Shown here one piece after another: positions 1 through 32,214 of a stretch of 32,214 nt of DNA (positions are counted from its first letter, which is position 1; every line of letters starts with the position of its first letter). Under the pieces are notes generated by a model. It did no database searches. It had not been told where the DNA came from and saw only the letters and a program-made list of their open reading frames with translations. The stretch is from a virus. The stretch is taken from the IMG/VR virus record IMGVR_UViG_3300046804_001569, positions 1-32,214 of that record. One strand, given 5' to 3'. A program made the translations under genes and the position numbers.

Positions 1-165
1 TATATTAATGGCATCCATCCCCATTCCACTAAATGCATCTGCATCTGTTCTCGGTTTCCATATGCCTCCTCTAATATGTGTATATCCTTTATTAAGGAGT
101 TTTATTATTGCCCATTCAAATTGGATATTATTCTCAATGGCGCACGGTCCTGCTATTATTCTCAT
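1..165 (-). CDS. DAHP synthase/chorismate mutase, duplicated 5' fragment (first 55 codons)
   Basis: This is the N-terminal part of the gene complete at 31246-32190, present a second time because the window ends overlap. It starts with ATG at 165, four bases after the stop codon of the CmoA-like gene (170-172), and runs off the window at base 1. The A-G-P-C motif and the G-G-I-W-K-P-R-T motif are both present. The mismatch at base 128 changes codon 13 from ATT (Ile, right copy) to AAT (Asn, here), so the two copies encode slightly different proteins. It is not a second gene; treat it as the same gene read across the junction. Confidence 0.9.
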   Translation of the reverse strand, partial: MRIIAGPCAIENNIQFEWAIIKLLNKGYTHIRGGIWKPRTDADAFSGMGMDAINI

Positions 166-189
166 ATCTCTATTTGATTGCTATTATAC
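1..189. repeat. Left copy of terminal redundancy (circular contig overlap)
   Basis: Bases 1-189 match 32026-32214 at 188 of 189 positions; the only difference is T128 here versus A32153 at the right end. The overlap lies inside the DAHP synthase/chorismate mutase gene and runs into the end of the CmoA-like gene, so joining the ends restores a continuous operon. This is what an assembler leaves when a circular or circularly permuted genome is written as a linear contig. The unique genome is then 32,025 bp. A genuine short direct terminal repeat cannot be excluded, but its position inside a coding operon argues against it. Confidence 0.95.
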
Positions 190-844
190 CAACAAAATTA
201 AATGCCTGATAAAATGTAGATATGTGCCTATAGCCCAAAATCTGCAAATCAATATAATTTTCCTCTAGTGTTTTAGGTTTCATTATGAGCCTTAAATCTC
301 TCTCTTTTTTAAATATTTCCTCACTAGAAAAATTTTGAGCCTTGTAATCATAATGGGAAAATGTTAATACCTCCTGCAGTTTTCCATTATCCTGGTATAT
401 CTTTTCTGCCAAAATAAATACCCCTCCATTATGCAATCCATTGTATATATCCTTTAATAATTTAAATCTTTTGGATGGATTAATAAATTGCATGGTAAAT
501 ATAGAATAGATGATTTGAGCATTTAAAAATGATGGATTATCAGTTAAATCTATATTGCTAAATCTTAAATTATTGCTTTGTGATATTCCTGTATTTTTTG
601 GCAATAGATTACTATTATCATATCCTATTTTAGGGCATTTATATGGCAGTTCTTTTAATAATTTGCCGGTACTGCATCCTACATCATATATAGCCCCATC
701 ATCAGTTACAAAGTAATCACTAATGGATTTAATAGCCTGTATGAGAAAATCGTAATTAGGTACTGATTTATTAATATGATTATCAAAATCCTCTATAGTA
801 TTAAAATCAAATTTCTCCATTTTCTTTAGTTTTAAATGTATCAT
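170..844 (-). CDS. cmoA-like: CmoA-like carboxy-S-adenosylmethionine synthase
   Basis: A Rossmann-fold SAM enzyme whose closest recognisable relative is CmoA, which converts SAM and prephenate to carboxy-SAM (Cx-SAM) and phenylpyruvate. Numbering from ATG 844, residues 27-31 read SVPNY (CmoA SVPGY), residues 54-60 are the SAM motif D-V-G-C-S-T-G (CmoA DLGCSLG), and the middle has T-M-Q-F-I-N-P-S-K-R followed by L-x-x-I-Y-x-G-L-x-x-G-G (CmoA TLQFLEPSER and LLDKIYQGLNPGG). The C-terminus keeps Q-A-F-N-F (CmoA QCFNF). These matches span the whole protein, so this is more than a generic methyltransferase. Start candidates are 862, 844 and 820; 844 is chosen because GGGGAGG lies about nine bases upstream. 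It follows the small gene at 807-1052 with overlap and precedes the DAHP synthase gene by 4 bp. No CmoB partner is visible, so a tRNA role is not supported here. Confidence 0.88.
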   Translation of the reverse strand: MIHLKLKKMEKFDFNTIEDFDNHINKSVPNYDFLIQAIKSISDYFVTDDGAIYDVGCSTGKLLKELPYKCPKIGYDNSNLLPKNTGISQSNNLRFSNIDLTDNPSFLNAQIIYSIFTMQFINPSKRFKLLKDIYNGLHNGGVFILAEKIYQDNGKLQEVLTFSHYDYKAQNFSSEEIFKKERDLRLIMKPKTLEENYIDLQILGYRHISTFYQAFNFVGIIAIK

Positions 845-29421: not shown

Positions 29422-30507
29422 CTATTTTGGGGCTAAAATAGTATTATATACATGCTCTGCTATTGCTCTCATCATTAGGGGAGGTACTGCGCGCCCTAGT
29501 CGCTCTGTTTTTTTGGTATATTTCTCTCCTAGATAGTAATCATCAGGAAAAGACATAATACGTATCAATTCAGGTACTGTTAACTCTCTATTTTCTTCCC
29601 AATGGCATAGGCATGCTCCTTTATTACCCTGCCTTTGGCATATGGTTGGGCTAGGATAGTGCCTTTTAATGCGTATTAATCCAAATAAGGCTTTTTTAGA
29701 TTCACTATATTTTTTACCATTCTCTCCCTCTTTCATTTGCATGAGTATATTTTTTACTTTTCCTTCGCTATGAGTAGCATCTTTTATATCCTGGTCGCTA
29801 TTAATCACTCCATTTAGAGCCTCTAATACGCTAATTGCTTTGCTTTGAGGCTTTGGATAGGTTATTTGCCTATTTATATCATTTCGTACTCCTATGAATA
29901 TGGTACGCTCTCTAGATTGCGGTACTCCATAATCTTTAGCATTCAATACTTTATATCTCACATCATATCCACATTCTACTAATGCATCATATATATTTTT
30001 AGGCTTTTCAAATAGGCTAAATTGAGGATTGCCTAATAGATGCGATGCGGATCCTAATGTAATACCTTTTACATTTTCGCATATAAATACCTTTGGTTGT
30101 ATCTCATTTAGTATCCTAGCAAATTCAAAAAATAAATCATCTGTCCTCTGCGTAGTATCACTATATTTTTTCTCTTTACCCCAATCTTTTTCTCTATTGC
30201 CACTTAATGAAAAGGAGGAGCATGGAGGAGAGCCATCTAGTATATCTAACTCTCCCTTTGCCATTCCTATTTTATCCAATATCATCTGCCCATTTAACTG
30301 CCTTATATCCTGGTCGAAAATATATGTATCAGGATAATTACGCTTATATACATCCCTCGCGGCCGGTATAAATTCATTAATTGCTAATACTTTACCTCCT
30401 GCTAATCTATAGCCTGTGGATGAGCCTCCTCCTCCTGCAAATAATGATACTACATTAAATAGGTTTTTTTTGGATTGCTCTAAAACATCTGCCAAATGAT
30501 ATACCAT
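29422..30507 (-). CDS. C5-cytosine DNA methyltransferase with motif X Asn-to-Arg change; candidate DNA carboxymethyltransferase
   Basis: 361 residues with all main C5-MTase motifs in order: I, S-L-F-A-G-G-G-G at 21-28; II Glu45; IV, G-S-P-P-C with catalytic Cys96; VI, E-N-V at 144-146; VIII, Q-S-R-E-R at 197-201; a compact target region to about 305 that includes P-S-P-T-I; and motif X, L-G-R-A-V-P-P at 337-343. Family members almost always have G-N-A/S-V; here Asn is Arg339 (codon CGC, 29491-29493). In engineered M.MpeI the matching Asn-to-Lys change allows use of carboxy-SAM, so Arg could hold the carboxylate. The gene begins 2 bases after the asparagine-synthetase-like gene and shares its operon with a CmoA-like Cx-SAM synthase. 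If it uses Cx-SAM, the product is 5-carboxymethylcytosine; otherwise ordinary 5mC. Target sequence unknown. Confidence 0.95.
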   Translation of the reverse strand: MVYHLADVLEQSKKNLFNVVSLFAGGGGSSTGYRLAGGKVLAINEFIPAARDVYKRNYPDTYIFDQDIRQLNGQMILDKIGMAKGELDILDGSPPCSSFSLSGNREKDWGKEKKYSDTTQRTDDLFFEFARILNEIQPKVFICENVKGITLGSASHLLGNPQFSLFEKPKNIYDALVECGYDVRYKVLNAKDYGVPQSRERTIFIGVRNDINRQITYPKPQSKAISVLEALNGVINSDQDIKDATHSEGKVKNILMQMKEGENGKKYSESKKALFGLIRIKRHYPSPTICQRQGNKGACLCHWEENRELTVPELIRIMSFPDDYYLGEKYTKKTERLGRAVPPLMMRAIAEHVYNTILAPK

Positions 30508-30509
30508 AA

Positions 30510-31241
30510 TTATACCTTTAATTGTTTAAAATTAGAGTTACCACATTGCATATTACTAGGTCGCCTAGCCTTAAATCTTTTAAAGAAATCAGGATATAAA
30601 TTTATCAAAATTCTTTTCCTACCAGGCTGATTTACCTCCTCAAATGTTTTATCCCAAAAATAATTATACACATCATCATGCATAAATGGGGCTATTAATG
30701 TTTTACCTTTTGATTCTGCATATGCTTTGGCAGATTCATATTGTTTTTTATATGTACCATATACTTTTATTCTATATTCCTGCATAGATTTCAATGTAGG
30801 TACTTTGGTTTTCTCCTCACGTTTTGATTTAATCATAAAATCTCTACCTAATCCAAAATATGCATCACTACCTAATCCTGTATAAATCACATCCTGATCT
30901 ATATTATCTATCAAAATGCAGAATAAACTCATAGTTAATAAACTCGCTTTTAATCTAGGATTAATGCCATGCTCTATTAAAAATTGCTTATACTCATCTA
31001 AATTAGTTTTACTATCTATTTTTACTACAGTATAATCAAAATCATAATGCTCTACTATATCTATAAATGAGAGATAATCATCGCTATCAATATCATCCAT
31101 TTTAATGGCATATGGCTCTATCTCTAGATTTTCATCCATTAATAGATTTAATATTACGCATGAATCAATTCCTCCACTCAATAATACTGCTACATTTTCA
31201 TCATCTTTTTTTACTGATTTTTTTAATAATTCTTTTAACAT
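30510..31241 (-). CDS. Asparagine-synthetase-like ATP pyrophosphatase, candidate DNA-base amidotransferase
   Basis: 243 residues from ATG 31241, 4 bp after the DAHP synthase stop (the frame reaches 31289). It matches only the C-terminal, AMP-forming half of AsnB: P-loop L-S-G-G-I-D-S at 21-27, the T-G-L-G-S-D-A-Y-F-G segment at 121-130 (AsnB GEGSDExFGG), and A-P-F-M near 184 (AsnB PFLD). The N-terminal glutaminase domain is absent, so nitrogen would come from free ammonia or an amine. Such enzymes adenylate a carboxylate and convert it to an amide. Between a Cx-SAM-producing gene set and a predicted carboxymethyltransferase, the likely substrate is the carboxyl of 5-carboxymethylcytosine, giving an amide such as 5-carbamoylmethylcytosine. 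Family clear; substrate inferred. Confidence 0.85.
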   Translation of the reverse strand: MLKELLKKSVKKDDENVAVLLSGGIDSCVILNLLMDENLEIEPYAIKMDDIDSDDYLSFIDIVEHYDFDYTVVKIDSKTNLDEYKQFLIEHGINPRLKASLLTMSLFCILIDNIDQDVIYTGLGSDAYFGLGRDFMIKSKREEKTKVPTLKSMQEYRIKVYGTYKKQYESAKAYAESKGKTLIAPFMHDDVYNYFWDKTFEEVNQPGRKRILINLYPDFFKRFKARRPSNMQCGNSNFKQLKV

Positions 31242-31245
31242 AATT

Positions 31246-32190
31246 CTATATTTTTTGATTTTTACATGATAGGCTATGTATCTCCTCATACACTAGGTTA
31301 TAATCTCCCCATTTATCTATTAATTGGGATTTTCTTTTTAGATCAGTAATGGGCATATTATTCTCTTTTTTTATTACCCCTATCTCCTTACTCACTTGCA
31401 TCCTGGCATTTAATAAATGGATTATTTGATTATCAATATTATCTAATTCATAACGTAAATACTCTATAGGAGCAATGGGATGTAAATAATTATCTATATC
31501 CTCTATATCTATTTGCTGATCTACATCAGTTAATGCATGAGCAGGAGATGGATGCGCCTCTATTATATAATTTTTATAGCCTAGATGCATGGAATAATCT
31601 ATAATTTGCTTTATTAAATCCTTTTGCCCTGCAATATGCGACGGATCTATAAATATATCATCCATAGATAATCCCATATTTTTTCTAAACTTTTCTAATT
31701 CATCCCATTTAGGCTCATTTCTATAAAGTGATTTGGGATTTATAAATCCTCTAAATATTGGATTTACTTTGATGCCTCTATTTAAAAATCTACTTATTGC
31801 GCCCATCCATAATTTACTATCATTGGCTATAGGGTTTTTTATTCCTATAAAATCAAATTCTCCAGGAGTAATAGCCTCTGATAATTGAGCCATTGTAAAC
31901 GGATCTCCACTACTCCTAGCCCCTATCCATATATTTGCCTTTATATTTCGTACCTGGTCTAATTGTTTTAGATTGCTTACCTCTGTATAAAATGTAAAAT
32001 CATACATTTTCTGCAGTTGCTCTACTATATTAATGGCATCCATCCCCATTCCACTAAATGCATCTGCATCTGTTCTCGGTTTCCATATGCCTCCTCTAAT
32101 ATGTGTATATCCTTTATTAAGGAGTTTTATTATTGCCCATTCAAATTGGATAATATTCTCAATGGCGCACGGTCCTGCTATTATTCTCAT
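31246..32190 (-). CDS. Bifunctional DAHP synthase / chorismate mutase
   Basis: 314 residues. DAHP synthase (type I-beta, about 1-235) joins phosphoenolpyruvate and erythrose-4-phosphate: A-G-P-C with Cys8, W-K-P-R-T at 36-40, I-G-A-R-S-S-G-D-P-F at 89-98, I-K-N-P at 117-120, D-P-S-H at 182-185, and E-A-H-P-S-P-A-H-A-L from 211. An AroQ chorismate mutase domain follows (about 243-314): L-R-Y-E-L-D-N-I-D, then R263, K274-K275 and D283/R286, ending I-H-S-L-S-C-K-N-Q. Such fusions are typical of Bacteroidota. This copy lacks the usual 20-25 residue N-terminal extension and has a shortened loop in the mutase. It lies 4 bp after the CmoA-like gene when the circle is closed. Likely purpose is to raise prephenate for Cx-SAM synthesis, with host enzymes doing the middle shikimate steps. 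Confidence 0.95.
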   Translation of the reverse strand: MRIIAGPCAIENIIQFEWAIIKLLNKGYTHIRGGIWKPRTDADAFSGMGMDAINIVEQLQKMYDFTFYTEVSNLKQLDQVRNIKANIWIGARSSGDPFTMAQLSEAITPGEFDFIGIKNPIANDSKLWMGAISRFLNRGIKVNPIFRGFINPKSLYRNEPKWDELEKFRKNMGLSMDDIFIDPSHIAGQKDLIKQIIDYSMHLGYKNYIIEAHPSPAHALTDVDQQIDIEDIDNYLHPIAPIEYLRYELDNIDNQIIHLLNARMQVSKEIGVIKKENNMPITDLKRKSQLIDKWGDYNLVYEEIHSLSCKNQKI

Positions 32191-32214
32191 ATCTCTATTT
32201 GATTGCTATTATAC
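32026..32214. repeat. Right copy of terminal redundancy
   Basis: Matches bases 1-189 with a single mismatch (A32153 versus T128). It covers the first 55 codons of the DAHP synthase/chorismate mutase gene and continues into the last bases of the CmoA-like gene, whose body lies at the left end. It marks the overlap used to close the circle. Confidence 0.95.

Follow-up and report, generated by a model that had tools for sequence, protein, structure and literature searches.

A candidate prephenate-supply module in a probable phage operon for carboxy-SAM-dependent cytosine hypermodification

The CmoA/CmoX/CmoY pathway and a related operon in a 32-kb phage

The closest described system is that of the Synechococcus phage S-B43, where CmoA, CmoX and CmoY together give 5-carboxymethylcytosine and its glycine amide (Yang et al., Nat Commun, December 2025, PMC12783734). 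CmoA of S-B43 forms carboxy-SAM from SAM and prephenate, CmoX places the carboxymethyl group onto C5 of cytosine in GC, and CmoY couples glycine to the carboxylate; all three enzymes have been assayed, and 5-glycylcarboxymethyl-dC is found in the virion DNA (PMC12783734). Wild-type SpCmoX is restricted to carboxy-SAM as donor, and its Arg350 occupies the position of Asn304 in M.HhaI (PMC12783734). The same study counts 5,615 candidate CmoX sequences and names the availability of prephenate as an open question; chorismate mutase (CM) and DAHP synthase (DAHPS) are not mentioned in it (PMC12783734). The core pathway is therefore already known, and an earlier note on the DNA analysed here, in which 5-carboxymethylcytosine was held to be known mainly from enzyme engineering, is outdated on this point, having rediscovered that pathway from the sequence alone. 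The new part is a candidate prephenate-supply module for carboxy-SAM-dependent DNA hypermodification, occurring as a DAHPS-CM fusion and as a stand-alone mutase, and no description of such a module was found in the literature searched, which left preprints outside and covered subscription journals thinly.

The window, i.e., the whole stretch of DNA analysed, comprises the 32,214 bp of a virus record, and among its genes are those for terminase, portal, protease, capsid, tail, holin, lysis, exonuclease, Erf-type annealing and NinG-type proteins. Self-comparison of the window shows that the terminal 189 bases at both ends match at 188/189 positions (Table 1), so that superimposing the two copies gives a circular map of 32,025 bp. 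On the minus strand and across the circle junction, the genes for CmoA, DAHPS-CM, an AsnB-type ligase and a C5 methyltransferase follow each other, CmoA (844-170) continuing straight into DAHPS-CM (32190-31246), with intergenic gaps of 4, 4 and 2 bp when the ligase start is taken at 31241; an alternative, longer ligase reading frame from 31289 would overlap DAHPS-CM. Both the four contiguous genes and the circle junction of the earlier note are thus confirmed. The synonymous codon use of the four genes is close to that of the other genes of the same phage and gives no sign of a very recent import of the operon. The sole mismatch between the repeat copies (128 T, 32153 A) alters residue 13 of DAHPS-CM, which is I in the full copy of the window and N in L007, a contig almost identical to the window that shares its metagenome prefix; this difference may be a population variant or an assembly error.

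Table 1. Features of the window discussed in the text, with the evidence for each assignment
Feature	Position	Strand	Evidence
Terminal repeat copy 1, closure of the circular map	1..189	.	188/189 bases = 32026-32214
cmoA, putative carboxy-SAM synthase, 224 aa, operon gene 1	170..844	-	TIGR00740, phrog_4752, PDB matches
cmoX, putative DNA cytosine C5-carboxymethyltransferase, 361 aa	29422..30507	-	best PDB match 8yf3
Arg339 codon of CmoX (= SpCmoX Arg350 / M.HhaI Asn304)	29491..29493	-	alignments
cmoY-like putative ATP-dependent amide ligase, 243 aa, AsnB synthetase domain only	30510..31241	-	PF00733, AlphaFold/Foldseek
DAHP synthase/AroQ-type chorismate mutase fusion, 314 aa, proposed prephenate supply	31246..32190	-	PF00793, PF01817
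Terminal repeat copy 2	32026..32214	.	matches copy 1

The arrangement resembles S-B43 in its carboxy-SAM synthase, in a CmoX with the SPPC motif and the carboxylate-binding Arg, in an AsnB-type ligase without a glutaminase domain and in the tightness of the operon, and differs in the additional DAHPS-CM gene between CmoA and the ligase, in a ligase that deviates at positions conserved in SpCmoY-type ligases, and in the phage itself, which is of 32 kb, whereas S-B43 is a cyanophage of 214 kb. The preferred reading, with a probability of about 0.8, is that the four genes belong to a single operon which hypermodifies cytosine after replication by a CmoA/CmoX/CmoY-type route and brings along a prephenate supply. 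What we infer comprises every enzyme activity in the window phage, the contribution of DAHPS-CM to flux, the choice of amine and the advantage to the phage. According to this proposal, the DAHPS domain would commit PEP and erythrose-4-phosphate to the shikimate pathway, the enzymes of the host would take the carbon on to chorismate, and the CM domain would convert chorismate into prephenate, from which, together with SAM, CmoA would make carboxy-SAM. CmoX would then carboxymethylate the cytosines of the phage DNA at C5, and the CmoY-like ligase would activate the carboxylate with ATP and join an amine to it, probably an amino acid or another small amine and not glutamine-derived ammonia, the modified base possibly shielding the DNA against restriction. 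The term self-contained, used for this system at first, is too strong; the phage does encode the first (DAHPS) and the last (CM) step of the route to prephenate, but the six steps between them belong to the host.

Putative carboxy-SAM synthase and carboxymethyltransferase

The window CmoA matches the family model TIGR00740 with an E-value of 1.1e-37 and 130 bits, under the model cut-off of 193.3 bits; the biochemically proven SpCmoA is likewise under this cut-off and scores lower than the window protein (115.6 bits). It also matches phrog_4752 (E 5e-57) and the PDB entries 1im8, 4gek and 4iwn (E 1e-25 to 1e-27), and an SD-like GGGGAGG precedes its start at 844. The CmoA gene shares an operon with CmoX in the window and in relatives as well. 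The score above that of SpCmoA and the S-B43 operon with the same CmoA, CmoX and CmoY genes (PMC12783734) support the earlier assignment of this protein as the probable maker of the donor. Among 296 Bacteroidota genomes, a CmoA-family match is present in 13, nine of them above the cut-off, and a host of that phylum would therefore in most cases lack carboxy-SAM; if the phage infects such a host, this would account for its having a CmoA of its own. In a Phocaeicola genome (L256:1453-2247 and L002), a CmoA-like protein is encoded next to genes for membrane proteins, and the DNA fetched around it contains no CmoX.

The methyltransferase belongs to the C5 DNA methylase family (E 2e-58), and its best PDB match is SpCmoX (8yf3, E 1.6e-76), with M.HhaI at about 1e-22. 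The SPPC motif with the catalytic Cys is present as S93-P94-P95-C96, and Arg339 aligns with Arg350 of SpCmoX in 8yf3, at the Asn304 position of M.HhaI; a motif scan finds Arg at the equivalent place throughout 76 newly fetched CmoX-type loci. By the sequence test of Yang et al. (PMC12783734), the enzyme is a CmoX, and the match to 8yf3, the SPPC motif and Arg339 speak for the carboxymethyltransferase type, as expected from the initial proposal of a C5 enzyme accepting carboxy-SAM. An ordinary 5mC methyltransferase next to a CmoA serving tRNA modification would also be conceivable, given that bacterial CmoA is a tRNA-modification enzyme and that C5 methyltransferases are common in phages; this explanation is highly improbable, since the window protein has Arg where M.HhaI has Asn, SpCmoX, which carries this Arg, worked in its wild-type form with carboxy-SAM alone (PMC12783734), and neither a CmoB-like protein nor any further methyltransferase is recognised among the other window proteins scanned. 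Two tandem CmoX-type genes, both with the carboxylate-binding Arg, are found in the CmoA operon of L088 (L088:1069-3277), and such pairs occur likewise in the CmoA operons of L160, L287, L303, L304, L310, L311, L322, L325, L328, L329 and L332, perhaps reflecting two sequence specificities.

The putative amide ligase and its amine

The third gene of the operon, next to that of CmoX, encodes a protein that matches PF00733 (Asn_synthase, E 6e-13) and retains the PP-loop SGGxDS as LLSGGIDS. Its AlphaFold model (mean pLDDT 86) finds as best Foldseek matches the synthetase domains of asparagine synthetase and beta-lactam synthetase (E 1e-10 to 1e-6). The predicted synthetase fold, the LLSGGIDS motif and the place beside CmoX support the idea, put forward at the outset, of an AsnB-type enzyme likely acting on a carboxylate. 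The carbamoylmethyl end product that was claimed with it is less likely. The same pathway would lead to 5-carbamoylmethylcytosine if the ligase took ammonia, in line with its belonging to the AsnB family and with the suggestion of Yang et al. (PMC12783734) that ammonia is used by the ligase cluster with a glutaminase domain; that domain is found neither in the window ligase nor elsewhere in the operon, and glycine is the substrate of SpCmoY, the characterised ligase of this domain-less type, which makes a plain amide improbable.

The proposed CmoY-like ligase is about 20-23% identical to CmoY-type ligases (about 21% to SpCmoY), and the sequence KKTHFEC, common to SpCmoY and its close relatives, is replaced by PRLKASL. 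The glycine substrate of SpCmoY cannot therefore be transferred to it, and for the same reason the protein is filed as CmoY-like and not as a glycine ligase; an amide is to be expected as the product, though the amine in it may be other than glycine. Yang et al. (PMC12783734) describe clusters of ligases that are set apart by their active-site residues and whose amines are unknown, and the window ligase is a lead to a new DNA base. In L165 (L165:6311-8004), and also in L170 and L293, two different adjacent AsnB-type genes, coding for 297 and 266 aa, are located between CmoX and CmoA, and may stand for two amines or for two successive ligations.

Chorismate mutase in the CmoA operon and in other phage clusters

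The DAHPS-CM protein carries in one frame a DAHP synthase domain (residues about 2-235; PF00793, DAHP_synth_1, 2e-20, 73 bits, cut-off 25.5) and a chorismate mutase domain (about 243-312; PF01817, CM_2, 2e-15, 57 bits, cut-off 27). The DAHPS positions invariant in cellular fusions (C8, K37, R39, T40, R92, K118, R147, H185, E211, D222) are kept in all four phage copies, as are the CM positions R246, R263, K274, R286 and Q312; among them are the positions expected to be catalytic in the two enzyme families. The expected catalytic positions are conserved even though the window fusion shares no more than 41-43% identity with the other phage fusions. Among cellular proteins, the closest are other DAHPS-CM fusions (32-38% identity), almost all of which come from Bacteroidota. 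The four phage fusions form one clade (support 100/99), which itself sits on a long branch, as does the window within it; a Bacteroidota host is suggested by these DAHPS-CM relatives only.

In agreement with the Bacteroidota DAH7PS-CM enzymes of Prevotella nigrescens and Porphyromonas gingivalis (PMC12202928), the phage proteins join an N-terminal DAHP synthase to a C-terminal AroQ-type CM with conserved catalytic positions. They differ from them in being encoded in a DNA-modification operon and in lacking, in all four copies, the N-terminal extension, part of the interdomain linker and an 11-residue segment of the CM domain. The DAHPS and CM domains of the Porphyromonas and Prevotella enzymes are interdependent, with allostery transmitted through their interface (PMC12202928). 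That the phage protein escapes feedback control is a guess, and the more far-reaching scenario, in which a DAHPS-CM freed of feedback by the loss of extension, linker part and CM loop feeds CmoA, the ligase uses an amine new to DNA, and the virion DNA contains a new 5-carboxymethylcytosine amide, is tentative and, taken as a whole, rather doubtful.

Relatives were fetched from four queries (CmoX, CmoA, DAHPS-CM and CM); scans with the single DAHPS-CM and ligase proteins returned only the near-copy L007, and alignments were then used as queries. Where the CmoA of a phage shares about 53-59% identity with that of the window, the slot between CmoA and CmoX contains the fusion, a stand-alone CM or nothing. 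The exact four-gene order of the window, with DAHPS-CM, ligase and CmoX in succession, recurs among the fetched loci only in L007; the relatives carry subsets of it. DAHPS-CM is followed by CmoX without a ligase between them in L008 and L009, and by two CmoX genes in L088; a stand-alone CM (86 or 88 aa) precedes CmoX in L010 and L102; and CmoA stands directly before CmoX, with an empty slot, in L025, L104, L105, L107, L109 and L111. Six related phages thus have the slot filled, by the fusion in four (L007, L008, L009, L088) and by the stand-alone CM in two (L010, L102), and scans started from DAHPS-CM or CM gave the same six as close relatives. The junctions in the relatives are mostly 4-bp overlaps, ATGA or GTGA. 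The stand-alone proteins are confirmed by Pfam CM_2 (E 6e-12 and 1e-19), that of L010 having lost the residues aligned with D283 and R286 of the window. In L088, the bases preceding DAHPS-CM are the end of CmoA, and an apparent gap of 1 kb between DAHPS-CM and CmoX proved to be the second CmoX gene.

The loci selected by CmoX or CmoA span 1.53 Mb and 2,351 genes. All five CM genes found in them (four from the locus count, and that of L008 from its gene order; the phages are related and not fully independent) lie directly 3' of CmoA, and no CM gene was found outside this slot. The position of CM beside CmoA is more than chance. An ordinary auxiliary metabolic gene for aromatic amino acids and phage protein synthesis, placed by chance in an otherwise real CmoA/CmoX/CmoY operon, would accord with the interpretation given to phage genes for DAHP synthase and chorismate mutase, as for Klebsiella phage KLB31 (PMC11845039) and for rumen viruses (PMC10465536). 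This possibility is unlikely; the gene lies between CmoA and CmoX in 6/6 phages, overlapping or nearly touching CmoA, and the two phages with CM alone would gain no pathway flux and would only divert chorismate to prephenate.

The recurrence of fusion or CM between CmoA and CmoX supports the preferred reading, a supply of prephenate, and with it the earlier claim that DAHPS-CM boosts the donor. Because CM alone can occupy the slot, the shared function would be the formation of prephenate, and the DAHPS of the fusion would in addition bring more carbon into the pathway. The presence of CM requires at least five changes on the CmoX tree, and the supply module comes and goes while the core pathway stays. 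CM and DAHPS are absent from the fetched DNA of most CmoA/CmoX phages, indicating that the module is not generally needed, and among the 76 newly fetched loci of the wider CmoX set a CM is present in one, L276, which is the L102 contig again, so that the module is rare. These operons offer a testable genetic answer to the source of prephenate, which would come in some phages through CM and in others through CM together with the enzyme of the first shikimate step. If this is true, some phage auxiliary genes assigned to aromatic amino acids (CM, DAHP synthase) or to asparagine synthase may be mislabelled DNA-modification genes; the auxiliary genes of the rumen virome include chorismate mutase, asparagine synthase and DNMT1 (PMC10465536).

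Several further candidates were set aside. The human faecal 'phage' record MT837090 (L003), where DAHPS-CM is followed by an apparent prephenate dehydrogenase and cellular genes, is taken as bacterial DNA and not counted; L089-L098, L100 and L101 have remote viral DAHP synthases without CM and without a CmoA match; and the CM domain in L351, a record of 348 kb, sits in an unrelated protein.

A different gene row occurs in the viral contig L099 (L099:940-3380), where a dCMP deaminase, a stand-alone CM, a stand-alone DAHP synthase and a U32-peptidase-like protein are encoded in succession, adjoining a DNA polymerase B gene. RlhA is a U32 protein that uses prephenate for base hydroxylation. Cellular U32 proteins such as TrhP likewise use prephenate in base hydroxylation (PMC12783734), and for this reason the row may be another phage operon that supplies prephenate, in this case for hydroxylated bases. 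Relatives of the L099 U32 protein are found in 331 phage records. The T4-like Yersinia phage fHe-Yen9-01 (L254:3555-5922) and Serratia phage 92A1 (L255:979-3348) have a homologue of it clustered with a thymidylate-synthase-like gene, and no CmoA or CmoX is annotated in these clusters, which may be covered by the work on glycosylated 5-hydroxycytosine cited in PMC13390438 (Lee et al. 2025). They resemble the CmoA operons in placing a phage CM, present in the fHe-Yen9-01 cluster as a CM-domain gene, beside a family whose cellular members (TrhP) use prephenate, and differ in the consumer and presumably in the chemistry, which would be hydroxylation and not carboxymethylation.
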